Shown piece by piece: positions 2,963-51,788 of a stretch of 64,000 nucleotides of DNA. The notes under the pieces are model-generated. The model was not told the origin of the DNA, did no database searches, and worked only from the letters and a program-made list of their open reading frames with translations. This stretch comes from a virus. Each line of letters begins with the position of its first letter. The first letter of the stretch is position 1. Position numbers and translations under genes: made by a program. The stretch lies in IMG/VR virus record IMGVR_UViG_3300044733_000695, positions 1-64,000 of that record; one strand, written 5' to 3'.

Positions 2963-3136
2963 ATGGAGCTAGCTCACCCGCTTTCGGTCCAGTTCACGGC
3001 TGAACAGCTTGCTTGGCTTGATGCCCGTCGCGTCGCTGGCTTGTCCCGTAGTGCCGTGCTGCGACTCGTAGTCGAGCAGGCCATGCGCCTTGACAAGCAA
3101 GGCCTGCTGCCTGCTACGGGACGCCGCGAGTCATGA
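2963..3136 (+). CDS. 57-aa ribbon-helix-helix-like protein
   Basis: A short open frame begins ATG GAG CTA and ends in TGA overlapping the PrimPol start by ATGA, so the two are translationally coupled. The protein reads SVQFTAEQLAWLDARRVAGLSRSAVLRLVVEQAM: a beta strand, two helices and a turn typical of the CopG/Arc ribbon-helix-helix family. It would bind DNA as a dimer, and its place as first gene of the rightward replication operon suggests autoregulation or origin binding. It is below the usual length cut-off of gene finders. Another RHH-like protein of similar style follows the replication gene at 5462. Confidence 0.7.
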   Translation: MELAHPLSVQFTAEQLAWLDARRVAGLSRSAVLRLVVEQAMRLDKQGLLPATGRRES

Positions 3137-5175
3137 GCAGTGACCTGTTGGCGCAGCTCATGAAGCTGCCACGTGACTGGTCTTATGTGCCAGTTGATGG
3201 CGAAAAACGGCCATACATCAAAGATTGGCAGGATGGCCACATCACTCGCGCTCAGCTTGGCAATGAGCTGAAGTCTGGCCGCGCCAAGGCAATTGGCGTT
3301 TGTTGCGGCACCCTTAGCGGTGGCCTGCTGTTCGTTGACCATGACGGCAAGTCCGCGTCGCGGCTGTTCGATGAATGGGGCATCCCGGTCAGCTCGTTGC
3401 CGCAGTCTTGGACCGTAACCAGTGGCCGCGACGGGCGGTTTCAGATCATTTACCAAGTGCCTCAGCAGTACTGGGCAGACATCCGCACTCGTAAGTACAA
3501 AACTGGCGTCATTGACAGCGAAGGCAAGCCCGAACAGGTTGAGCTGCGCTGGGATGGCTGCCAGTCCGTCATTGCCGGTGCGCACCCGTTGACCTCTGGC
3601 TATAGCTGGGTGCCAGGTCGATCGCCAAGCGATGTGGACATTGCTGAGGCACCGGCGGATTTGTTAGCGCGGATGCTACGGCAGCCTGTGCAGGCGCCGT
3701 TGCCGTTGATGACTGCTGCCGGCAGTGACGACACAGCGCGAGCGCGGTCATACCTCGAAGCGCTGCAACCCAGCCGCGCTGATGACTATGACCAGTGGCT
3801 TGAGGTGGGCATGGCACTACACAGCGTCGACGATGCCCTGCTGGCTGACTGGATCAACTGGTCAGCGCAGTCATCCAAGTTCAAGCCCGGTGACTGCGAA
3901 CACAAGTGGCGCGGCTTCAAGTCTGGCGGTGGCATCACCCTTGGCACCCTTGGTCAACTGGCCAAGCAAGATGGTTGGCGCGGGCGGCAGCAACTTGAGC
4001 CTGTCCGCCGTGAGCGGCCTGCAAGCAAGCAGCCGCCGTCAGCGGTGAACCCGCAATTGCAGCCGATGAATGCTGCAGAGCTGCTCAACCTGCTGCGGCA
4101 CGGCGACAGCGCCTACCGCTACAACACCTTCACCCAGCGCATTGAAGTAGACGGCGCTCCCATTGAAGGCGCCGAGCGGTTTTACCTCACCCTGGCAGAG
4201 ATGGGTTACAAGGTCTCCAAGGAGGTTGCCCTGGACTGCATTGTGCAGGTGGCTAACGAGTCGCCTTATGACCCGGTTGTCGAGTACCTCGACCGCGTTG
4301 CCGCAACCGTTGCGCCTGCTTACATCGAAGCGCTGTCCACTGGCTACCTGCGACCTAGTGACACGCCAGGCACCATCTACGACGAAATGCTAAAGCGCAC
4401 GCTCATCGGTGCAGTTGCACGTGCCTACAACCCTGGTTGCAAGCACGATACCGCTTGCGTGATCATGGGCGACCAAGGCGCTTACAAGTCATCATTCTGG
4501 AACTGCCTTGCCGGTGACTTCTTCAGTGATGCCTTAGGTGACATCAGCTCAAAAGATGACCTGATGGTATTACACCGCTCTTGGATTATGGAGTGGGCAG
4601 AGCTTGACCATGTAACCAATCGCAAGCACGCCGGTCAAGTCAAAGCGTTCCTATCGCAGGCGGTTGATATGTTCCGCGTGCCTTACGGCAAGTCAACTGA
4701 AGCATTCCCTAGGCGCGGAATCATTGTTGGCACGACTAACCGAACCACCGGCTTTTTGGTGGATGAAACTGGCAACCGGCGGTTCTGGGTCATACCCACA
4801 ACCAAGACGCAGGCTGACCAAATTGACACCGCCGCGCTATTACTGGAGCGTGATGCAATATGGTCCGCCGCTGTTGCTGCATACCGCAATGGTGAGACCA
4901 GCAGGCTGCCTGCTGACATGGAACGCCTGCTTGCAAGCGAAAACGAATCTTACGTCGTGGACAATCCTTGGCAGGCTGAAATTGAAGCTTGGTTAAAGAA
5001 GAATCCACTTACGGACATTACCACTGAGAAGTTGCTCACCGATGCCATTAAAAAGCCCGTTGAACGCCAAAGCAGGGGTGATCAGATGCAAGTGGCGGAC
5101 GTGCTCAAGCGGCTGGGTTACAGGCGTTACCGAGGCAGTATCGGCGGAAGCAGGGCTTACGTCTACCGGCGGTGA
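3133..5175 (+). CDS. PrimPol-VapE replication protein
   Basis: The 680-residue protein joins a primase-polymerase to a helicase. Residues 1-190 form an archaeo-eukaryotic primase fold, with VDHDG near 68-72 for metal binding, SGRDGRFQIIY near 97-107, and the third motif around LRWDGCQSVIAGAHP. Residues of about 195-275 resemble PriCT-2 (DDYDQWLEVGMALHS). Residues of about 390-620 form a VapE/virulence-associated E helicase, with GDQGAYKSSFW near 446, SWIMEWAELDH and GTTNRTTGFLVDETGNRRFW. The P-loop is unusual: the Gly before the Lys is Tyr. It should prime and unwind phage DNA. The orthologue in phage B is 49514-51604. Confidence 0.9.
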   Translation: MSSDLLAQLMKLPRDWSYVPVDGEKRPYIKDWQDGHITRAQLGNELKSGRAKAIGVCCGTLSGGLLFVDHDGKSASRLFDEWGIPVSSLPQSWTVTSGRDGRFQIIYQVPQQYWADIRTRKYKTGVIDSEGKPEQVELRWDGCQSVIAGAHPLTSGYSWVPGRSPSDVDIAEAPADLLARMLRQPVQAPLPLMTAAGSDDTARARSYLEALQPSRADDYDQWLEVGMALHSVDDALLADWINWSAQSSKFKPGDCEHKWRGFKSGGGITLGTLGQLAKQDGWRGRQQLEPVRRERPASKQPPSAVNPQLQPMNAAELLNLLRHGDSAYRYNTFTQRIEVDGAPIEGAERFYLTLAEMGYKVSKEVALDCIVQVANESPYDPVVEYLDRVAATVAPAYIEALSTGYLRPSDTPGTIYDEMLKRTLIGAVARAYNPGCKHDTACVIMGDQGAYKSSFWNCLAGDFFSDALGDISSKDDLMVLHRSWIMEWAELDHVTNRKHAGQVKAFLSQAVDMFRVPYGKSTEAFPRRGIIVGTTNRTTGFLVDETGNRRFWVIPTTKTQADQIDTAALLLERDAIWSAAVAAYRNGETSRLPADMERLLASENESYVVDNPWQAEIEAWLKKNPLTDITTEKLLTDAIKKPVERQSRGDQMQVADVLKRLGYRRYRGSIGGSRAYVYRR

Positions 5176-5176
5176 T

Positions 5177-5412
5177 GTCCTACCTAGGTGGGGATGGTGT
5201 CCTACCTCAAAATCCCTGAGATCCTTTCTGGCGCAAGAGGTTTGGGGCAATCATCCCTACCTGCCAGTGTCCTACCTACTTCGCAGAATCCCCTACGCGC
5301 CCTTTCCTTCTCTTCTTTTTATTACTCTTTAAGAGTAGGAGAGGAAGGTAGGACGGATGCCGAGAACGCCTGCGCTGCATGGGAACTGCCCTGTCCCACT
5401 TCTGCCCTACCT
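5177..5412. repeat. Iteron-like repeats, candidate origin
   Basis: The 286-base gap after the replication gene contains GTCCTACCT at 5177-5185, 5199-5207 and 5269-5277, an exact inverted copy at 5346-5354, and one-mismatch copies at 5254-5262 and 5404-5412. A pyrimidine- and AT-rich stretch with the hairpin TACTCTTTAAGAGTA (5323-5337) lies between the direct and inverted copies. Repeats of one 9-mer around an AT-rich patch, next to an initiator-type gene, are what iteron origins look like. The same position in phage B holds a different but related repeat set. Function is inferred. Confidence 0.6.
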
Positions 5413-5907: not shown

Positions 5908-6094
5908 CCACCCAAGTCACTACACCAGCAGCAGCATTGAATGCATTGATGCAATCCGCGCAGCACTCACACCAGAGGAATGGCGCGGTTACATCAAAGG
6001 CAATGTTATGAAATACTGCTGGCGCGAGAGGCTTAAGGCTGGCGACATTGACCTAGCCAAGGCTGCTTGGTATCTCACACACCTGCACCAATGA
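5891..6094 (+). CDS. DUF3310 protein
   Basis: The 67-residue protein starts at GTG 5891 and has the DUF3310 (SaV-like) signature: DPVDHPSHYT, IECIDAIRAALTPEEWRGYIKGNVMKYCWRERLK, then a final YL. This family is common in phage replication regions and its biochemical role is not known. The stop overlaps the clamp start by ATGA. A homologue in phage B lies on the other strand in the early operon (42222-42437). Confidence 0.85.
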   Translation: MSDPVDHPSHYTSSSIECIDAIRAALTPEEWRGYIKGNVMKYCWRERLKAGDIDLAKAAWYLTHLHQ

Positions 6095-7131
6095 AGCTCA
6101 TTACCACACAGGGCGACCTCGCCCATGCGCTACGCACCATTGCCCCAGCCATCAGCACCAGCAACAGCCACCCGATCTTGAGCTGCTGCCTGCTTGCTGC
6201 CGATGGCGCAACCATGACCGTCACCGGCTTCAACCTGGACCTTGGCATCAGCGTCACGGTCCCCGCAGCTGTAGAGGCACCTGGCACCGTCGCGTTGCCG
6301 CACAGGCTGCTAGCGGGGCTTGTAAGCCGCTTTGAGGATGGCGAGGTGCTCACCCTGTCAGATGGCGCTCTGACGGCCTGTGGCGCGTCCTACGGCCTTG
6401 CAGCGATGGATGCTGAGGATTTCCCCGCCATGCCCGTTGTAGAGGCACCTGGCGCTGAGCTATCGCTATCCGACGGTGTACGCGCCTGCCTGCCGTGTTG
6501 CAGTACCGACATCAGCAAGGCCATGCTCTCCGGCATTCACATGGCAGCCGGCTACATGGAGGCCACTGACGGCCACCGGCTCATGCGCATCCCCGTAGCG
6601 CTACCAGACGGCATTGACCTGGTGCTACCCGCCAGCACGATGAAGCTGCTGCAGGATCGCACCGTCACCGTGGCAGCAGCAGCCGGTCAGGCCGTCATCG
6701 ATGCCGGTGATGGCATCACCATCTACAGCCGCATCCTTGATGGCAAGTACCCCGATGTGGCAGCGCTGGTGCCCGCCAGCTTTGAGCACACCATGACCCT
6801 GGACCGGCACCGCTTTGCCCGGTGCCTGGAGCGTGTCGCGCTGATCGCAGAGGCGCACAACTCAGTTGTCAAGCTCACTGCAGTCGATGGCTATGTGGTC
6901 ATCACCGCCGAGGCTGATGCCAACAATGGCAAGGAGCGCCTTGACTACGACGGCGACGGCACCGGCGCATGGGCGTTCAATGTCCATTACCTGCTTGATG
7001 GCCTCAAAGCCATGCGCGGTAACGAAGCCGTGCTGCTTTCGGCCAATTCAGCCACGACCCCTGTAACATTGCAGCCAGCAGACAAAACTGGTATGACCTA
7101 CCTGGTCATGCCGGTGCAAATCAGAGAATGA
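6091..7131 (+). CDS. dnaN: DNA polymerase III beta sliding clamp homologue
   Basis: From the ATG at 6091 the protein has 346 residues, close to the size of a bacterial beta clamp. It has the three-fold repeat pattern: MKLITTQGDLAHALRTIAPAI and NSHPILSCCLLAADG in domain 1, TDGHRLMRIP in domain 2, and DGKYPDVAALVP and YLLDGLKAM in domain 3. The end (TYLVMPVQIRE) corresponds to the usual MPMRL-type tail that lines the partner pocket. Clamps tether polymerases to DNA. No DNA polymerase gene is present, so this protein probably recruits the host polymerase III or other clamp-binding proteins. It is coupled to DUF3310 upstream and the methyltransferase downstream by ATGA overlaps. Confidence 0.88.
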   Translation: MKLITTQGDLAHALRTIAPAISTSNSHPILSCCLLAADGATMTVTGFNLDLGISVTVPAAVEAPGTVALPHRLLAGLVSRFEDGEVLTLSDGALTACGASYGLAAMDAEDFPAMPVVEAPGAELSLSDGVRACLPCCSTDISKAMLSGIHMAAGYMEATDGHRLMRIPVALPDGIDLVLPASTMKLLQDRTVTVAAAAGQAVIDAGDGITIYSRILDGKYPDVAALVPASFEHTMTLDRHRFARCLERVALIAEAHNSVVKLTAVDGYVVITAEADANNGKERLDYDGDGTGAWAFNVHYLLDGLKAMRGNEAVLLSANSATTPVTLQPADKTGMTYLVMPVQIRE

Positions 7132-8315
7132 CATCCATCAAGGATTTAAAGTCCGATCACAAAAACGCCCGCAAGCGGACAGACCGCTCAGCCAAGCTCA
7201 TTGCTGAGTCGCTGCAGCGTTTTGGTGCCGCACGCAGCATTGTCATCGACGAAGAGAACCGCATCCTTGCTGGTAACGGCACCATTGAAGGCGCCAAGGC
7301 AGCAGGCATCAAGAATGTCCGGGTCATCGAAACCGATGGCACCGAAATCATCGCTGTCAAGCGCACGGGCTTAACCGAAGACGAGAAGATCGGCCTCGCT
7401 TTGGCCGACAACCGCACCAGTGACCTGTCTGATTGGGACAAGGACATGCTGCAGCAGCTCAGCGCAGAGCATGACTTAGCGCCATGGTTTGACGCCGATG
7501 ACCTAGCCGAGATCCTTGGCACCGTTGAGGAGTTACCCGCCGAGGGTTTGACCGATGCCGATGATGTACCTGAGGCGCCAGAAGAGCCGGTCACCAAGCT
7601 TGGCGACCTCTGGATCCTTGGCGATCACCGCTTGCTTTGCGGGGATAGCACTGACGTGCTAGCTGTTGAGCGGTTGATGGATGGGCAGAAGGCCGACATG
7701 GTGTTCACTGATCCGCCTTATGGGATGAGCTATCAATCCAACATGCGAACAAAGTCAGCTAAGTTCGCAGTACTGGAAAACGATGACAAGATCATCACTG
7801 ACTGGATCCCACTCGCCACTGCCTTCTCCTCTGGCTTCTGCTTTATCTGGACAACCTGGAAAGTCCTTGATCAGTGGTTAGATGCGACTAAAGACTTTGC
7901 ACCCTTGACTAACATGGTCGTATGGGATAAAGGCGGCGGTGGCATTGGCGACCTCCAGAAAACCTATTTGACAGACCATGAGATTGCGCTGGTTTTCAAC
8001 AGGGGCGCATCCCTCACCGGAAAGCGCATCGGCTCTGTTTGGGACATTGGCAAGGACCGTGCGACGGATTACGTTCACCCAACGCAAAAGCCAGTAGCCC
8101 TCGCTGAGCTGGCACTTGATACCACCACAAAACGCGGACACGTCATCCTTGACTTTTTTGGCGGTAGTGGCAGCACGCTTATCGCCTGCGAACGCCAGCA
8201 TCGCCATGCCCGCCTCATGGAACTCGACCCCGCCTACTGCGACGTGATCGTTCAACGGTGGCAGGCATTTACCGGCAAGCTCGCTACCCTTGAGGAAACA
8301 AAGGAGGCGTTCTAA
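7128..8315 (+). CDS. ParB-domain DNA methyltransferase
   Basis: The 395-residue protein has two parts. Residues 1-125 form a ParB/Srx-like domain (HKNARKRTDRSAKLIAESLQ, ILAGNGTIEGA, LALADNRTSDL). Residues of about 150-385 form a DNA methyltransferase, with DPPYGM near residue 195 (catalytic loop) followed by DFFGGSGSTLIACE near 342 (AdoMet site). That motif order is the beta class of N6-adenine or N4-cytosine enzymes. It may protect phage DNA from host restriction or mark replication or packaging sites. The stop overlaps the next start by one base (TAATG). Confidence 0.88.
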   Translation: MTSIKDLKSDHKNARKRTDRSAKLIAESLQRFGAARSIVIDEENRILAGNGTIEGAKAAGIKNVRVIETDGTEIIAVKRTGLTEDEKIGLALADNRTSDLSDWDKDMLQQLSAEHDLAPWFDADDLAEILGTVEELPAEGLTDADDVPEAPEEPVTKLGDLWILGDHRLLCGDSTDVLAVERLMDGQKADMVFTDPPYGMSYQSNMRTKSAKFAVLENDDKIITDWIPLATAFSSGFCFIWTTWKVLDQWLDATKDFAPLTNMVVWDKGGGGIGDLQKTYLTDHEIALVFNRGASLTGKRIGSVWDIGKDRATDYVHPTQKPVALAELALDTTTKRGHVILDFFGGSGSTLIACERQHRHARLMELDPAYCDVIVQRWQAFTGKLATLEETKEAF

Positions 8316-24656: not shown

Positions 24657-28468
<3,812 letters not shown>

Positions 28469-28480
28469 AGTGTAGACACT
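28469..28480. promoter_or_regulatory. Small palindrome between J and fibre genes
   Basis: AGTGTAGACACT (5-base arms) starts at the base after the J stop, in the 28-base gap before the fibre GTG. It may be an operator or weak hairpin. No T run follows. Confidence 0.25.
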
Positions 28481-28496
28481 GCCTGTCTTGTAAGTT

Positions 28497-30212
28497 GTGG
28501 CTCAACACGATTACGTCATCGCGAACGGCACTGGTGCTGCTGTCCGCTCTGACCTGAACAACGCGCTGGCCGCGATCGTCAGCAACAACAGCGGCGCGAC
28601 AGAGCCAGCAACGATGTATGCCTACCAGTGGTGGGCTGATACCAGCACCGGGCTGCTCAAGCTACGCAATGCTGCCAACAACGCTTGGATCACACTGAGA
28701 GAACTGGATGGCACGCTAACCATTGAGGCAGGTACGGTCTCGGCCCCTGGCTTGGCGTTCGCGTCGGACCTGAATACGGGCATCTATAGCCCAAGCGCTG
28801 ATCAGCTTGCAATCGCAACCAACGGCGTCGAGCGCGTCGAATGGGGCACCAGCGAGGTGGTGTTCAACGATGGCGGCGCTAATTATGATTTCCGCATTGA
28901 AGGCGATACAAACTCTTCGCTTTTCTTTGTTGATGCGTCAGCAGAAGCGGTAGGGATTGGCACTGCTGCGCCTAGCTCCTTGGGAAGTAATGTAACAACG
29001 GTTGAAATCCAAGGACCTACAACTACAAGAAGTGGCGGGATTCGGCTGTCCTCTAGTGACAGTTCGCAGAAAAGCGCCTTTTATGTTTACGATGGCGCCG
29101 CAGTTCTTGGCACAGAAACTGCTCATCCTTTGGGTCTATACGTCAGCAACACTGAAAGATGCAGGGTCGATACATCAGGTCGTTTTTTAGTTAACACGTC
29201 TTCTAGCGTTCCGGTCCTTTCAACGGTCACCGGAGCAGCAGTACAGGTCAATTCAAGTGCATTCGGATCTTACGCGCAAACTTGGTTTTATGGCGCAAAT
29301 AACGAGTTTGCTCCAGTAATTATGCTGGCAAAAAGCAGAAATACCACCTACGGAAGTTATACAGTTGTCCAGAATAATGACCAGCTTGGAGGGCTTTGGT
29401 TTGCCGGTGATGACGGAACTGACTTAAACCAGTCCGGCGCAAAAATTGAAGCCTTTGTAGACGGCACGCCCGGCAATAACGACATGCCGGGCAGGCTGGT
29501 CTTCAGCACTACCGCCGCCGGAGCGAGCAGCCCGACGGAGCGGATGAGGATAAACTCGTTTGGATCTATTGGTTTTGGATGTACTCCAGATGGTTCGGCG
29601 AGTACACTTGGCGTTCAAACAGGCGGCAGTGCTGGATGGTTAATAACAAAAAGAAATAGCAATCCTGCGTTGTTTGTCAACAGAGGCGTGGATGATGGTG
29701 ACCTTGTATTGTTCTATCAAGCTGATGTTTCAGAAGGGTCTATCTCCGTCTCTGGCACCACCGTTAGCTACAACGGTGCTCACCTTTCCCGCTGGTCGCA
29801 GCTGCCTGGCGGCGCAACCCGCGAAGAAATCTTACGCGGCACCGTGCTGAGCAACATCGACGAGATGTGCGCCTGGGGCGAGGAAGAAAACGAACAGCTC
29901 AACCGCATGAAAGTCTCAGATGTGGAAGGCGACCCCAACGTGGCCGGCGTGTTCCAAGCCTGGGATGACGACGACGACACCTACACCGACGACTTCTATT
30001 GCGCGATGACGGGTGACTTCATCATCCGCATTGCCGATGGCGTCACGGTGCAACGCGGTGATCTACTCATGTCCGCTGGTGATGGAACGGCCAAGCCCCA
30101 AGATGATGACATCATCCGCAGCAAGACCGTCGCCAAGGTGACTTCAACTCACGTCACCTGCACTTATGACGATGGCAGCTACTGCGTGCCCTGCGTGCTG
30201 ATGGCTTGCTAA
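28497..30212 (+). CDS. Tail fibre protein
   Basis: The 571-residue protein starts at GTG with QHDYVIANGTGAAVRSDLNNALAAIVSNNSGATEP and YQWWADTSTGLLKLRNAANNAW, a very common start of cyanophage and marine phage fibres. The middle is a beta-repeat region (FASDLNTGIYSP, AVGIGTAAPSS, GGLWFAGDDGTDLNQSGAKI, GRLVFSTTAAGASSPTERMRI). The last 130 residues (REEILRGTVLSNIDEMC...GDFIIRIADGVTVQRGDLLMSAGDGTAKPQ...YCVPCVLMAC) look like the C-terminal part of peptidase G2/chaperone-tipped fibres. The middle third is more AT-rich than the ends, as if the receptor part was exchanged. Confidence 0.82.
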   Translation: MAQHDYVIANGTGAAVRSDLNNALAAIVSNNSGATEPATMYAYQWWADTSTGLLKLRNAANNAWITLRELDGTLTIEAGTVSAPGLAFASDLNTGIYSPSADQLAIATNGVERVEWGTSEVVFNDGGANYDFRIEGDTNSSLFFVDASAEAVGIGTAAPSSLGSNVTTVEIQGPTTTRSGGIRLSSSDSSQKSAFYVYDGAAVLGTETAHPLGLYVSNTERCRVDTSGRFLVNTSSSVPVLSTVTGAAVQVNSSAFGSYAQTWFYGANNEFAPVIMLAKSRNTTYGSYTVVQNNDQLGGLWFAGDDGTDLNQSGAKIEAFVDGTPGNNDMPGRLVFSTTAAGASSPTERMRINSFGSIGFGCTPDGSASTLGVQTGGSAGWLITKRNSNPALFVNRGVDDGDLVLFYQADVSEGSISVSGTTVSYNGAHLSRWSQLPGGATREEILRGTVLSNIDEMCAWGEEENEQLNRMKVSDVEGDPNVAGVFQAWDDDDDTYTDDFYCAMTGDFIIRIADGVTVQRGDLLMSAGDGTAKPQDDDIIRSKTVAKVTSTHVTCTYDDGSYCVPCVLMAC

Positions 30213-34604: not shown

Positions 34605-34887
34605 TGGCTCCAACCTCGTATCAAAACGCAGCGCAAAGCATCAATTTAGACAGCAAATTTTTGAAGCATGGGGCCATACATGCGCGTATTGCGGCGCCCC
34701 GGCTGACACGCTAGACCATGTGAAGCCACGTCATAAAGGTGGCGCTACTGTTGCTTGCAATCTTGTACCGGCGTGCAAGAATTGCAACCGTAAGAAAGGC
34801 AGCGAGGAATGGCGCGAATGGTTTAGCCGTCAAGATTCGTGGTCTGTTGATCGCGTTCTAAAGATTCAGGATTGGTTGGTTGATTGA
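34588..34887 (+). CDS. HNH endonuclease
   Basis: A compact HNH protein of 99 residues: RQQIFEAWGHTCAYCGAPADTLDHVKPRHKGGATVACNLVPACKNCNRKKGSEEW. Two CxxC pairs bind structural zinc and the DH...N...N/K residues form the active site. Start GTG 34588 gives a 17-base overlap with the acidic protein. The end overlaps the sigma factor gene on the other strand by 22 bases. Homologue in phage B: 40920-41225. Confidence 0.85.
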   Translation: MDHLIDGSNLVSKRSAKHQFRQQIFEAWGHTCAYCGAPADTLDHVKPRHKGGATVACNLVPACKNCNRKKGSEEWREWFSRQDSWSVDRVLKIQDWLVD

Positions 34888-35879
34888 GCATCTGATGGTA
34901 AAAAATCAGTGCTTGCCACTGCTGCCTGTGCTCTCGGCACATACCGTTGAAGCAAACCCTCCATACATCCTGATAGCGGCTGATTGTTGGTTTCGACATG
35001 GCCAAGCGGGGTATTGCTTAATGGGTTGCTCATCAGCATACGAAGGCGGCTAATGCCACGACGCTCTAGGTTTTGCAGCTTGGTGCGGCTGACGCCTGTT
35101 TGTTGTTCAAGTTGCGCCCAGGTGACAGGCCGCGCAAGGTTTCTGGCATGGATTACCTGTTTGGTCAACGGGTCTAAGTATTTGTTAAAACAATCCATCA
35201 ATTCGCGTATCTCTTGCCGGGTTTCTATCAGGTCATTGTCGTAGTTAGGGTCAGCAATGTTGTCACCGATGCATGTGGTCTCGGTGTCAGCAACACGCTG
35301 GTCTAGGCTTGTCACTTTATAGGTTTGCTTTAACAAGTATGACAGTTCTTCTACATCCATATCCAGTGCGTTAGATATTTCGCTCATGGTTGGCTGTCTG
35401 CCGATCTTATGGCTTAGATCCTGCATGGTGCGGTTTATCTTGTACAGCATCTCATGCAAACTGGTTGGCAGGCGAATTATGGAGTCATGCTGGATCAATG
35501 CCCGCGTAATGCCTTGCCTGATCCACCAATAGGCATAAGTTGAAAACTTGTAACCGCGTGACGGGTCGAATAGCTCAACCGCACGCGCAAGGCCGATATT
35601 GCCCTCTTGGATCAAGTCCATCAACTCAAGCGTCTTATTGCTGCGCTTGTCGTACTTGCGGGCTACATGGACTACAAGCTGCAGGTTGGACTTAATAAAC
35701 CGTTGCCTAGCGCGTTCACCGCTTCGCAACTCGCGTTGCTCATCACGGGTTAGCTCCCTGTCGCATTGTCTTAATTCTTGCCATCTAATGACACGCCTGC
35801 CGAGTTGTATCTCTTGTTGCGGTGTCAGTAGTGGATATTTGGCGATACTGTTGAGGTAGTCTTTGATGCTGTCGGCCAT
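34866..35879 (-). CDS. Primary-type sigma-70 factor
   Basis: The 337-residue protein has regions 1.2 to 4. These include region 1.2/2.1 DSIKDYLNSIAKYPLLTPQQEIQLGRRV and NLQLVVHVARKY, region 2.2-2.4 LMDLIQEGNIGLARAVELFDPSRGYKFSTYAYWWIRQGITRALI, and region 3 RLPTSLHEMLYKINR...RQPTMSEIS. Region 4 ALARPVTWAQLEQQTGVSRTKLQNLERRGISRLR-like sequence carries the helix-turn-helix. It is closest in style to cyanobacterial SigA/group-2 factors. It is the last gene of the leftward early operon, so it may direct host RNA polymerase to later phage promoters. The C-terminus extends about 55 residues past region 4. Confidence 0.92.
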   Translation of the reverse strand: MADSIKDYLNSIAKYPLLTPQQEIQLGRRVIRWQELRQCDRELTRDEQRELRSGERARQRFIKSNLQLVVHVARKYDKRSNKTLELMDLIQEGNIGLARAVELFDPSRGYKFSTYAYWWIRQGITRALIQHDSIIRLPTSLHEMLYKINRTMQDLSHKIGRQPTMSEISNALDMDVEELSYLLKQTYKVTSLDQRVADTETTCIGDNIADPNYDNDLIETRQEIRELMDCFNKYLDPLTKQVIHARNLARPVTWAQLEQQTGVSRTKLQNLERRGISRLRMLMSNPLSNTPLGHVETNNQPLSGCMEGLLQRYVPRAQAAVASTDFLPSDAQSTNQS

Positions 35880-40567: not shown

Positions 40568-40675
40568 CGTCGTCGGCGGGACTATCTCCGGCCCCTGCAT
40601 CCGGCTTATGGGTGATGGTCAGCCTTCGTCGCTGACAGGACTAACTCCGGGCCATGCATCCGGCTTGTGGCTGAA
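40568..40675. repeat. 108-bp direct repeat, right copy and phage junction
   Basis: Identical to 1-108. Left of it is the early promoter region of phage A. Right of it the sequence (AACAATATACACC...) is unlike 109 onward and leads to phage B genes. The bases from 40676 to 40753 hold no gene I can support. Confidence 0.95.
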
Positions 40676-47538: not shown

Positions 47539-49182
47539 TTGAACCTCCGCCCCTACCAACACCGCGCGATCGATGATCTCCGCAATGCCTACCGCTCAGG
47601 CGCGCGCGCGCCCCTGCTGGTGGCTCCAACTGGGGCAGGCAAGACCGTCATCTTGGCCGCCATCACCGCGAGTGCCACAGCCCGCGGCCGCAAGGTGCTC
47701 ATCCTTGTGCATCGACGTGAGCTGATCCATCAAGCCAGCAGCAAACTCACAGCCGCCGGCGTCGAGCACGGCATTATCGCCGCTGGCGTTCAACGTGCAG
47801 ATGCAACAGTCCAGGTCGCATCCGTGCAAACGCTCGTCCGCCGGCTCGCCACCACCGACTGGGAGCCGTGCCTGATCATCATCGATGAAGCACACCACGC
47901 CGCGGCTGGCTCCTGGTCGCAGATCATCAGCCACTGGCCTGGTGCGTTGCGCCTGGGCGTCACGGCCACACCTTGCCGCCTTGATGGCCGCGGCCTTGGC
48001 GACACCTTCGATGCGCTCATCGAAGGCCCATCGGTCCAGATGCTCACTTCGGCCGGCTACCTGTCACCCGCGCGGATCTTTGCGCCGCCCATCGTGGCCG
48101 ATCTGTCGCAGCTGCGCCGCCGTGCTGGCGATTACGCCATCGACCAAGCTGCAGACGCCATGACCCGGCCAACGGTGACCGGTGACGCCATCCACCACTA
48201 CCGCAAGCTGGGCGGCGCTCAGCAGGCGATCGCGTTCTGCTGCAATGTCAACCACGCCGTCTCAGTTCGGGACTCATTTGAGACGGCAGGGATCAGCTCA
48301 GCTCTGCTGCTGGGCGAGACAGCCGATCGGGATGCGGTGGTTGCCGCGTTTGCGGCTGGCACCATCCGCGTGCTGGTGACGGTCGACGTCGTCTCAGAGG
48401 GATTCGACATCCCCGCCGCCAGCGTCGCCATCCTGCTAAGGCCGACCCAGTCGCTCGGCCTGTACCTGCAGCAGGTTGGTCGCGTGCTCAGGCCCGCACC
48501 AGGCAAGGACGCCGCGTTGATCCTCGATCACGTCGGTAACGTCACCCGGCACGGCTTTCCTGATGACATCCGCCAGTGGTCGCTCGAGCATGGCGCCAAG
48601 CGCGCAGGTGGCAACGAGCAAGCGCCATCAGTGCGGACATGTTCGCAATGCTTCGCGGCATTCAAGCCGGCACCAATCTGTCCATGCTGTGGCTTTAACT
48701 GTGTGCCTGATACCCACGAAATCCGCGTGGTAGACGGGGAATTAGTAGAAGTCGAAAAACCATGGAAACCTCGCCTAGGAGAAGAAGTGATATGTAATCT
48801 TTTTAGACAACGATATTACTTCGCAGGTATAACCTCAACAGGTCAAGCAAGATTGTCGCTAGATCGCCTTTTCGCTGAAAAAGGAGAGTGTTCAATTCTT
48901 GAGGCAAAATCAGTGATAGACAGGCTTGGACATTTTGCAATTGTTAACGCAGACTTAGAAACATTGAAGCAAGTTGAACCAAGCCATGCGTTAAAAGCCG
49001 CTCGCCGCGAACAAGGCAAAGCCCAAACCCTCCAGCAGCTCATCGCCATCGGCCATGCCCGCAACATGCGCAACCCCGTAGCGTGGGCCAAGCATGTGCT
49101 TTATGCCAGGTCGCTGAAGGATGGCCAACGCCGAAACCACCCTGCAGCAGCAGATACGCCTGGCGGTCGGTTCCCGATCTGA
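47539..49182 (+). CDS. Superfamily 2 helicase with inserted domain, phage B
   Basis: The 547-residue protein has NLRPYQHRAI, VAPTGAGKT (Walker A), IIDEAHH (DEAH), GVTATPCRLDG, VDVVSEGFDIPA, QQVGRVLRP and the zinc knuckle CSQCF...CPCCG. After it, about residues 398-483 (roughly 48730-48990) are a segment absent from the phage A helicase, with KPRLGEEVICNLFRQRYYFAGITSTGQARLSLDRLF and SVIDRLG. The segment is notably AT-rich. The end (REQGKAQTLQQLIAIGHARNMRNPVAWAKHVLYAR) matches phage A again. The start is TTG at 47539. Confidence 0.88.
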   Translation: MNLRPYQHRAIDDLRNAYRSGARAPLLVAPTGAGKTVILAAITASATARGRKVLILVHRRELIHQASSKLTAAGVEHGIIAAGVQRADATVQVASVQTLVRRLATTDWEPCLIIIDEAHHAAAGSWSQIISHWPGALRLGVTATPCRLDGRGLGDTFDALIEGPSVQMLTSAGYLSPARIFAPPIVADLSQLRRRAGDYAIDQAADAMTRPTVTGDAIHHYRKLGGAQQAIAFCCNVNHAVSVRDSFETAGISSALLLGETADRDAVVAAFAAGTIRVLVTVDVVSEGFDIPAASVAILLRPTQSLGLYLQQVGRVLRPAPGKDAALILDHVGNVTRHGFPDDIRQWSLEHGAKRAGGNEQAPSVRTCSQCFAAFKPAPICPCCGFNCVPDTHEIRVVDGELVEVEKPWKPRLGEEVICNLFRQRYYFAGITSTGQARLSLDRLFAEKGECSILEAKSVIDRLGHFAIVNADLETLKQVEPSHALKAARREQGKAQTLQQLIAIGHARNMRNPVAWAKHVLYARSLKDGQRRNHPAAADTPGGRFPI

Positions 49183-49486
49183 CCTGCGCCTGTTCCGCAA
49201 TCAGGTGGGCAGCCTGCCTGACCCGCGCACCGGCAGGCTGGTGACGTTCGGCCTTGCCCGTGGTTCTGCTGATCTGATCGGCTGGCGCACGGTGGTGGTG
49301 ACCCCTGAGATGGTCGGCCAGCGCATCGCCGTGTTCACCAGCATCGAGGTCAAGACTCCCACCGGCCGGCTCAGACCAGAGCAGCAGGCCTGGCTGGGCG
49401 TGGTGCGCGGTGCTGGCGGAATCGCCGGGGTGGCCCGCTCTGTTTCAGATGTTGAAGATCTACTCTCCAACCTGCCAACCTGCTAG
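49121..49486 (+). CDS. VRR-NUC domain nuclease, phage B
   Basis: The 121-residue protein (ANAETTLQQQIRLAVGSRSDLRLFRNQVGSLPD, GLARGSADLIGWRTVVVTPEMVG, SIEVKTPTGRLRPEQQAWLGVVRGAGGIAGVARS) is an orthologue of 39-470 with the E-x-K active site. It overlaps the helicase end by 62 bases. Its final codons contain two copies of the origin-type repeat (TCCAACCT, GCCAACCT). Confidence 0.88.
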   Translation: MANAETTLQQQIRLAVGSRSDLRLFRNQVGSLPDPRTGRLVTFGLARGSADLIGWRTVVVTPEMVGQRIAVFTSIEVKTPTGRLRPEQQAWLGVVRGAGGIAGVARSVSDVEDLLSNLPTC

Positions 49487-49513
49487 CTAAACTTCGGGAC
49501 CCCACAGGTCAGC

Positions 49514-51604
49514 ATGGACCCGATCACTCTCGCCGCTCAGCTCGAGCGGCTCCCATCCGCCTGGGCGCTTGTAGCCGTCGGCAACGACAAGCGTCCCTAT
49601 CAGCCTGAATGGCAGAAGAATCCCATCTCGCGCGATCAACTCGCCGCTGAGATCACAGCCGGCCGTGCCGTTGCGATCGGTGTCCTTGCAGGTCCCCAAT
49701 CTGGTGGTCTGCTGTTCGTCGATCACGACGGCCTCGGCGCGTCCGAAGTCCTCGAGCAGATCGGCGCACCCCTTCGTGATCTCCCCAAATCCTGGGCGGT
49801 AACCTCTGGCCGCGATGGCCGGTTGCAGATCATCTACCAGGTCCCCGAACCGTTCTGGGCGACTATCAAGACAACTAAGCTCCGCAGCTCCATCAAAGGC
49901 GAGCAGCTCGAACTTCGCTGGTCCGGCTGTCAGTCCGTCGTGGCCGGCACCCATCCCATGACCGGCGCCTACCGCTGGCTCAAGGATCGATCACCTGATG
50001 ATCTGCCCATCGCAGAAGCGCCATCGGTCCTGCTGCAGCAGATGCAGCGCAAGCAGCCAGACCCAGCGCCCTTGCTGCAGCTTCCACAGCTACAGACACA
50101 AGCCGATCGGACCGATGAAGAGTGGGCGCGCATCTGGCTCGATGCGCTCAACTCATCACGCGCTGATGATTACGACTATTGGATCGAGGTCGGTCAATGC
50201 CTCCATTCAGTCGGTGATCACATGCTCGCGGACTGGGATGCCTGGTCCCGGCAATCCCCAAAGTGGGAAGCCAATGCCTGCGCCTATCACTGGGGCACTT
50301 TTAAGGCCGGCGGCAATCGCGACATTCGGCACCTCTGCAACCTCGCTAAGGAAGACGGCTGGCAGCCAAAATCACGCCATGAAAAAAGCCGCCCAGTCGC
50401 ACCGACCAAGCGGCTAAAGGCTGCATCCCACCCACAGGAGCATGACGCCAACAAGCCTACAGCGGCAGATGGCAAGCTCCTGAAGCTCGAATCGAACGAG
50501 CTGCTTGAACTGCTGCGTCAGCAACTCGGCGCTGCACTCCGCTGGAACCTGTTCACTTCAGCCATCGAACTCGATCAGAAGCCGGTCGAGCACATCGATC
50601 ACTTCTACCTGCAGCTTGCACAGCAGGGCGTCAAGGTATCCAAAGAACTCGCAGCAGACGCGATCCATGTCGTCGCGCTTGAGAACCCCTACGACCCCGT
50701 TCGCGAATATCTCGAGCACGTTGCCGATCACGTTCCCGCCACGTCGATCGAAAACCTCGCAACCGCTTACCTACGCCCCAAAGACGAACCAGGCAGTCTT
50801 TATGACGCCATGATCAAGGCGACCCTGATAGCCGCGGTCCGACGCATCTTTGAGCCCGGCTGCAAGCATGACTCGGCCTGCGTGCTCATGGGTCCGCAAG
50901 GCTGCGGCAAATCAACCTTCTGGCGCAACCTCGGCGGCCTCTGGTTCAGCGATGCTCTCCGCGACATCGGATCTAAGGATGACCTGATGGTCCTGCACCG
51001 CTCCTGGATCATGGAGTGGGCCGAGCTGGATCACATCACTGGCCGCAAGCACGCCGGGCAGATCAAGGCGTTCCTCACCCAGCAGACCGACATGTTCCGC
51101 GCGCCATACCAACGCGCAACTGAGTCGTTCCCACGCCGATCCATCATCGTCGGCTCCACCAACCGGGACACCGGCTTTTTGGTCGATGACACCGGCAACC
51201 GCCGCTTCTGGGTGATCCCTGTCACGGCCGCGCCGCACATTCCCGTCGATGGCCTGCTGCTCGAGCGCGATGCCATCTGGTCCGCAGCCGTCGCCGCCTA
51301 TCGCAACGGCGACCCCAACCACCTCAGCCGCGAGCACGCCCAGCAGGTGGACACCGAAAACGAAACCTATCTCGTTGACAGCCCATGGAAGGCGGCCATC
51401 CAGGAGTGGCTGACCAACCGCAGAAGCGTTGAACCAATCACCAGCGAGGCCATCCTGACCCAGGCGATCAACAAGCCGGTCGAGCGCCAAGGGCGCGCCG
51501 ACCAGATGCAGGTGGCCGGGATCCTGCGTGAACTTGGTTACGAAAAGAAGCGCGCATGGTTGGGAGGTAGGAACAAATGGGTGTTTGTCCAACCTCCAGG
51601 ATGA
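49514..51604 (+). CDS. PrimPol-VapE replication protein, phage B
   Basis: The 696-residue orthologue of 3133-5175 has the primase region (VDHDG near 75, SGRDGRLQIIYQVP, LRWSGCQSVVAGTHPMTGAYRWL), the PriCT-2-like part (DDYDYWIEVGQCLHS) and the VapE helicase with a normal P-loop GPQGCGKSTFW near 460. GSTNRDTGFLVDDTGNRRFW and KPVERQGRADQMQVAGILRELGY follow. It has the standard Walker A that phage A lacks. It is followed by the iteron-like region. Confidence 0.9.
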   Translation: MDPITLAAQLERLPSAWALVAVGNDKRPYQPEWQKNPISRDQLAAEITAGRAVAIGVLAGPQSGGLLFVDHDGLGASEVLEQIGAPLRDLPKSWAVTSGRDGRLQIIYQVPEPFWATIKTTKLRSSIKGEQLELRWSGCQSVVAGTHPMTGAYRWLKDRSPDDLPIAEAPSVLLQQMQRKQPDPAPLLQLPQLQTQADRTDEEWARIWLDALNSSRADDYDYWIEVGQCLHSVGDHMLADWDAWSRQSPKWEANACAYHWGTFKAGGNRDIRHLCNLAKEDGWQPKSRHEKSRPVAPTKRLKAASHPQEHDANKPTAADGKLLKLESNELLELLRQQLGAALRWNLFTSAIELDQKPVEHIDHFYLQLAQQGVKVSKELAADAIHVVALENPYDPVREYLEHVADHVPATSIENLATAYLRPKDEPGSLYDAMIKATLIAAVRRIFEPGCKHDSACVLMGPQGCGKSTFWRNLGGLWFSDALRDIGSKDDLMVLHRSWIMEWAELDHITGRKHAGQIKAFLTQQTDMFRAPYQRATESFPRRSIIVGSTNRDTGFLVDDTGNRRFWVIPVTAAPHIPVDGLLLERDAIWSAAVAAYRNGDPNHLSREHAQQVDTENETYLVDSPWKAAIQEWLTNRRSVEPITSEAILTQAINKPVERQGRADQMQVAGILRELGYEKKRAWLGGRNKWVFVQPPG

Positions 51605-51748
51605 GGTTGGAGAGTCCAGATCCATTCCCCTGCAGTCCTTTTACTAACCTTACTAACCTACTAACCTAGGTAATAAACCCAGGAGAGGGAGGGAGGGTAG
51701 GGGCGTTTTCCGTCTAAGTGCACCTAGGGGGGAGGTTGGATAGGTTGG
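51588..51748. repeat. Iteron-like repeats, candidate origin of phage B
   Basis: TCCAACCT at 51588-51595, its exact inverse AGGTTGGA at 51604-51611 and 51733-51740, a near copy at 51742-51748, and ACTAACCT three times (51643-51650, 51652-51659, 51660-51667). Two more copies lie at 49466-49481. The arrangement mirrors 5177-5412 in phage A, but the repeat sequence is different. AT-rich DNA separates the two clusters. Confidence 0.6.
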
Positions 51749-51788
51749 CAGGTGTATTACTCTGTTGCTGTATTGCATTGGTACTTCA

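Follow-up and report, generated by a model that had tools for sequence, protein, structure and literature searches.

Convergent repeat arrays behind the PrimPol-VapE genes of two joined phages as putative iteron-type origins that covary with a C-terminal winged-helix domain

The Rep protein of the Staphylococcus aureus pathogenicity islands (SaPIs) and the Cch2 protein bind iterons lying behind their own genes by means of their C-terminal domains (PMC7581432); for the SaPI rep-ori, that article cites Ubeda et al. 2007. In the phage-inducible chromosomal islands (PICIs), the origin lies just 3' of rep and has an AT-rich region with a set of iterons on either side (PMC6092414). A search of the literature available to us for origins of phages with VapE proteins recovered no account of them. 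Here we describe two PrimPol-VapE genes, VapE-A and VapE-B, and the short repeats around them in the IMG/VR virus record IMGVR_UViG_3300044733_000695 (73,028 bp), which joins two phages, termed A and B. The window is the whole stretch of DNA that was analyzed, i.e. positions 1 to 64,000 of this record, and coordinates refer to it unless stated otherwise. What is observed of the repeats, their layout, their covariation with the protein and their exchange makes it very likely that each array is an iteron-type origin behind its own PrimPol-VapE initiator, with the winged helix carrying the specificity and the domain and origin forming one cassette.

The two VapE proteins are 54% identical and score 225.8 and 216.1 bits against PF05272 (cut-off 25), which identifies both as VapE-type helicases. 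The Prim-Pol domain (PF09250) is recovered with 66.7 bits in VapE-B and is not called by Pfam in VapE-A, yet the N-terminus of the latter aligns with that of B. Given this PrimPol-VapE helicase, the systems do not belong to the iteron-plasmid type of RepE and pi, in which a Rep_3 initiator operates without a helicase. AlphaFold2 models of VapE-B predict a C-terminal winged helix with a recognition-like helix (residues 661-673) and two wing strands (677-683 and 686-692). Modeled by itself, the domain has a pLDDT of ~90-95, and as part of the full-length protein 82-92.

In the 64-kb window the motif C[CT]AACCT occurs 25 times on both strands, and nine of these copies fall inside the 247 nt of the two VapE-B flanks, while any other 216-nt stretch holds at most two. 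Written as (N)C[CT]AACCT octamers, the nine lie between 49466 and 51749, two upstream and seven downstream of the gene; four are exact TCCAACCT, three are ACTAACCT and two have G as the first letter. The seven downstream octamers compare with a maximum of four in 20,000 Markov simulations built on that downstream region, whose AT-richest 30 nt (51639-51668; 0.70 AT, 99.6th percentile) coincide with the direct repeats. The sequence scan thus bears out, in positions and count, the repeats that a preliminary description had placed at the ends of VRR-NUC and PrimPol-VapE. In phage A the corresponding repeat is CCTACCT, and six of its ten copies in the window are downstream of VapE-A (Table 1), around an AT-rich tract at 5308-5337 (0.77 AT, 99.97th percentile). 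Upstream copies were looked for in the VapE upstream regions of the phage A lineage and none were seen. Since phage A is without the upstream pair, the same description's view that A mirrors B holds for the downstream array and has to be corrected for the upstream side.

Relatives were collected as 250 unique loci from five scans of viral contigs, one scan of genome contigs and the record of Synechococcus phage S-LBS1, and are mostly freshwater cyanophage contigs. Within the 320 nt that surround the stop codon of VapE, a locus has on average 4.97 copies of its majority repeat, as against 0.36 in gene-body windows of equal length, and the downstream AT peak exceeds the gene-body peak in 98% of 248 loci. 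The repeats converge in orientation on this AT peak, with 581 forward and 190 reverse copies before it and 151 forward and 406 reverse copies after it. The arrays are situated immediately 3' of the initiator gene, as in origins of the SaPI/PICI type, and are referred to as putative origins. They remain behind VapE regardless of the next gene, which, together with the covariation with the VapE domain described below, argues against their being packaging (pac/cos) sites or recombination hot spots; terminase genes do lie downstream in some phages, and the S-LBS1 array is placed between PrimPol and terS, but we consider such a role extremely improbable.

The upstream pair is present in nearly all B-type clusters with VRR-NUC as the upstream gene, and its spelling matches that of the downstream copies (e.g. 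CTCACCT in L067 and CCCAACCT in L071). Going by a by-eye reading of a possible -10 element (Table 1), this pair may overlap the -35 region as an autorepression site. Its location where the -35 box would be, and the fact that in L112-L114, L272 and L296 the array is closely followed by a small gene of its own for a winged helix, are what one might expect if the repeats were operators for transcription of VapE or of downstream genes, bound by VapE or by another phage regulator, and formed no origin. This alternative appears quite improbable, given that the repeat base varies with a residue in the C-terminal domain of the helicase itself, that converging repeats flank an AT-rich tract as in PICI origins, and that the A lineage lacks upstream copies entirely.

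That the repeats and the initiator belong together is indicated by covariation. With the variable base defined as N in CC[N]ACC, mutual information was computed between N and all 993 alignment columns of 247 proteins (effective number 63). The top column is that of K678 in VapE-B and R665 in VapE-A, which reaches 0.82 bits of 1.09, the runner-up having 0.61. Among the called loci, K occurs with A in 116 cases and with T in one, and R occurs with T in 36, with C in 26 and with A in none. The same tendency is seen in copies per locus, R loci having 5.8 with T and 0.39 with A, and K loci 5.94 with A and 1.35 with T. In loci left open by the first repeat caller R again goes with T (23) or C (3) and never with A, and K is less strict (A 11, T 7, G 3, C 1). 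The main counts come from the stricter caller, because a mismatch-tolerant one mixes true and chance copies in the K loci. Restricting the analysis to noncoding repeats, i.e. DNA past the stop codon, left the covariation essentially the same. Aligning the PrimPol-VapE proteins against the repeats behind each, as the preliminary description had advised, thus shows that the base tracks one protein residue.

Several observations weigh against an origin recognized by this domain. The majority repeat was unclear to the first caller in 65 of the 250 loci, several K loci hold mixed A and T copies, and L224 is a true exception with K and T repeats; K678 may also mark a domain subtype instead of contacting the base. 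A PDB fold search with the winged-helix domain returned weak matches, some of them to winged-helix regulators, such that placing K678 on DNA by this route was abandoned, and the solved VapE relative 7pds matches the AAA+ part alone. The GC skew of phage A turns at ~19 kb and not at the array (5.2 kb), and skew was rejected as an origin mark. In cyanophage S-2L, which encodes a VapE protein, no array exceeded what simulation gave, and this phage was dropped as a second cyanophage example.

The association could in principle reflect shared ancestry alone, without a functional match of DNA and protein, and near relatives indeed have both in common. It was therefore evaluated on a tree of the protein core without the C-terminal domain. 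This tree requires a minimum of 17 changes in the residue class and of 15 in the base, and the 11 independent pairs on supported branches give 10.8 concordant and 0 opposite changes (p = 0.001). Moreover, all copies in a locus change together, as in L115 (CCTACC) and L091 (CCCACC) at corresponding places. We accordingly give ancestry alone almost no weight, and the earlier proposal that the repeat sequence diverged with the replication protein is upheld by repeated joint changes on independent branches. A second code, linking the repeat 5' flank GTCC to the wing motif G[KR]RRW, was rejected; its counts (10 versus 2 and 7) are suggestive but amount to only 4 independent pairs (p 0.25), a figure that shared ancestry would accommodate. 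Similarly, we do not claim a link of a wing-tip lysine with C instead of T (L091-type and L067), which has perhaps two origins and is discordant in L070.

Exchange between relatives further narrows down the part of the protein involved. L258 and L266 are 96.6% identical in the core and 49% in the C-terminal domain, and have the repeats CCTACC and CCAACC, respectively. At the DNA level, similarity within the pairs L258/L266 and L289/L284 is lost ~300 nt before the stop codon, remains absent through the domain and the putative origin, and is back by ~+300. Because similarity breaks and resumes around them, the domain and the putative origin have been exchanged as one piece. The idea that specificity follows the replication protein hence stands for its C-terminal winged-helix domain and fails for PrimPol, near-identical cores having different repeats.

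From these observations we infer a mechanism whose components, namely binding, melting, loading, origin activity and autorepression, are best stated conditionally. The iteron array, overlapping the end of the initiator gene and lying directly behind it, would be bound by the C-terminal winged helices of several VapE subunits, on repeats converging from both sides on the AT-rich tract. The AAA+ VapE ring would then melt this tract and load, and PrimPol or host enzymes would prime synthesis. Through the upstream pair, the initiator of the B lineage probably represses the promoter of its own gene. Specificity would be set by the winged helix, K678 (B) going with A in CC[N]ACC and R665 (A) with T or C; this domain and the origin behind it evolve and swap as one cassette. 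In five relatives a small separate gene behind the putative origin encodes the VapE winged helix alone, without the helicase. The predictive residue class of these genes fits the repeats of their own phage (R in L112-L114 and L272; K in L296), and their products could compete for iterons as a copy-number or timing control.

The context of the two phages bears on what the divergence might be for. The homology of other phage A contigs ends exactly at the junction, where the closure repeat is also found (Table 1), and phage A is therefore a genome complete at 40,567 bp to which a fragment of B has been attached, most likely by binning or assembly; the 108-bp repeat contradicts the idea that A and B share a contig as tandem prophages. 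The phage B terminase is closest to those of Synechococcus phages S-CBS3 and S-CBS1, and the nearest isolate by initiator is S-LBS1. Tail-fibre DNA at ~28542-28965 recurs at 72020-72443 of the record, with 173 bp exact, and because it is nearly identical over several hundred bases the hosts of A and B probably overlap. Close relatives of both (L005 and L088) occur in one metagenome, 3300034062, and from this co-occurrence and the tail-fibre DNA common hosts are plausible. These hosts, together with A and B repeats and domains that differ in the predictive residue, would suit the earlier suggestion that the divergence serves to let two phages replicate in the same cell without interfering with each other, with A and B as one such pair. 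This is compatible with the origin reading, but we lean mildly against it: the record merely joins two phages at the closure point of A, so that their physical linkage is no evidence of co-residence; cross-recognition of A-type and B-type origins is possible, because the repeats differ mainly in one base and K loci keep T copies; and the pattern would look no different under drift with compensatory change or under selection acting against satellites or repressors.

As further observations on the two phages, the near-identical tail-fibre stretches as a whole span 27558-28965 of the window and 71030-72443 of the record, suggesting recent exchange and a common host, and the capsid and terminase genes of A and B belong to different families. 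Phage A encodes a sigma-70-like RNA polymerase sigma factor (34866-35879, minus strand; PHROG 351, E 1e-65), unusual for a 40-kb siphophage, and a fused ParB-like and DNA methyltransferase protein (7128-8315, plus strand) beside a DnaN-like sliding clamp (6067-7131).

Table 1. Features of the window and of related loci (locus handle given where positions are those of a relative)
Feature	Position	Strand	Details
VapE-A, proposed phage A initiator	3133-5175	+	680 aa; PF05272 5e-64, PriCT_2 6e-24
R665 codon (VapE-A)	5125-5127	+	aligned with K678 (protein alignment)
Putative phage A origin	5179-5412		CCTACCT at 5179, 5201, 5256, 5271, 5406 (+) and 5346 (-)
Phage A/phage B fragment junction	40675/40676		108-bp exact closure repeat, 1-108 = 40568-40675
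VRR-NUC nuclease gene	49121-49486	+	Pfam PF08774, E 1.4e-11
Upstream direct-repeat pair	49466-49473, 49474-49481	+	TCCAACCT, GCCAACCT; at VRR-NUC gene end, 32 nt 5' of VapE-B start codon
Possible -10 element	49488-49493	+	TAAACT, read by eye; form [TC]AnACT recurs in B-type relatives
VapE-B, proposed initiator	49514-51604	+	PrimPol-PriCT_2-VapE helicase, 696 aa; PF09250 4e-18, PF08707 3e-14, PF05272 5e-67
C-terminal winged-helix domain, VapE-B residues 640-692	51431-51589	+	AlphaFold2 models
K678 codon (VapE-B)	51545-51547	+	in first wing strand; no overlap with repeats
Inverted pair	51588-51611		TCCAACCT 51588-51595 (+), AGGTTGGA 51604-51611 (-); overlaps VapE-B gene end
Three direct repeats	51643-51667	+	ACTAACCT at 51643, 51652, 51660; beside and within AT-rich tract
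Spacer between two repeat sets	51668-51732		TAATAAA, then purine-rich G tract; order kept in relatives
Inverted-orientation repeats	51733-51749	-	AGGTTGGA 51733, AGGTTGGC 51742, 9 nt apart; close putative origin
Winged-helix-only gene	L113:5328-5576, L112:2531-2779, L114:5329-5577		83 aa
Winged-helix-only gene	L272:4130-4318, L296:4052-4231

Arrays of this kind extend to distant phages. Behind the VapE-family initiator genes of four unrelated phages (L407, L409, L410 and L411: Pseudomonas vB_Pae_U5, Marinobacter PS3, Staphylococcus 2638A and gut NatCom_18656) there are 10 or 11 related octamers, with simulations reaching a maximum of 6-7; in vB_Pae_U5 one further small gene lies between the initiator gene and the array. 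The origins of most sequenced phages are unknown, and this layout recurs in phages of Synechococcus, Pseudomonas, Marinobacter, Staphylococcus and the gut, which suggests a rule for locating VapE origins. The repeat spelling, in step with one residue, points to a way of keeping the replication of related phages apart, and the base-predicting residue and the natural domain-origin swaps provide ready-made pairs for testing whether origin specificity sets phage compatibility. As a tentative generalization, picocyanobacterial phages, and perhaps VapE phages generally, might carry a swappable winged-helix and origin cassette with a simple residue-to-base code. Swaps of this cassette would create many mutually compatible replicon types coexisting within a single host population, and would be driven by selection to avoid cross-talk with satellites or with other phages infecting the same cell.

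Among described systems, the PrimPol of S-LBS1 (PMC6157547) is 61% identical over two matched pieces (76% of VapE-B), and the region downstream of its gene contains many CTAACCT/CCAACCT repeats; the words repeat, iteron and origin of replication are all absent from the text of that paper. The matching of iterons to their initiator is reminiscent of geminivirus Rep, whose cognate iterons vary between close relatives and match their Rep (PMC12548392), although these are plant rolling-circle viruses of single-stranded DNA with an unrelated protein and with iterons upstream of rep. In the case of Cch2 of the staphylococcal cassette chromosome mec (SCCmec), which has a primase-polymerase partner, the C-terminal domain by itself binds short direct repeats situated downstream of the operon (PMC7581432); there, however, a D5/Primase_Cterm-type helicase is accompanied by a separate polymerase, whereas here PrimPol and the VapE AAA+ module form one chain. 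The likeness to the rep-ori of SaPIs and PICIs lies in the arrangement: the gene of an initiator helicase, in some cases a fusion with a primase, stands right before the origin, in which an AT-rich tract lies between two sets of iterons. Phages A and B are themselves not PICIs and have the origin type alone in common with them, because full virion genes are present (terminase, portal, capsid, tail and endolysin in A; terminase, portal, capsid and tail in B), and the same layout in non-PICI phages weakens the statement that this organization belongs to PICIs alone. In SaPIs and PICIs the C-terminal domain recognizes the iterons; here covariation and cassette exchange make the winged-helix domain a candidate for that role. 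Features that set the phages apart from those islands are the convergence of the repeats, their overlap with the end of the gene and the additional upstream copies of the B lineage, and a residue predicting the iteron base has been identified.
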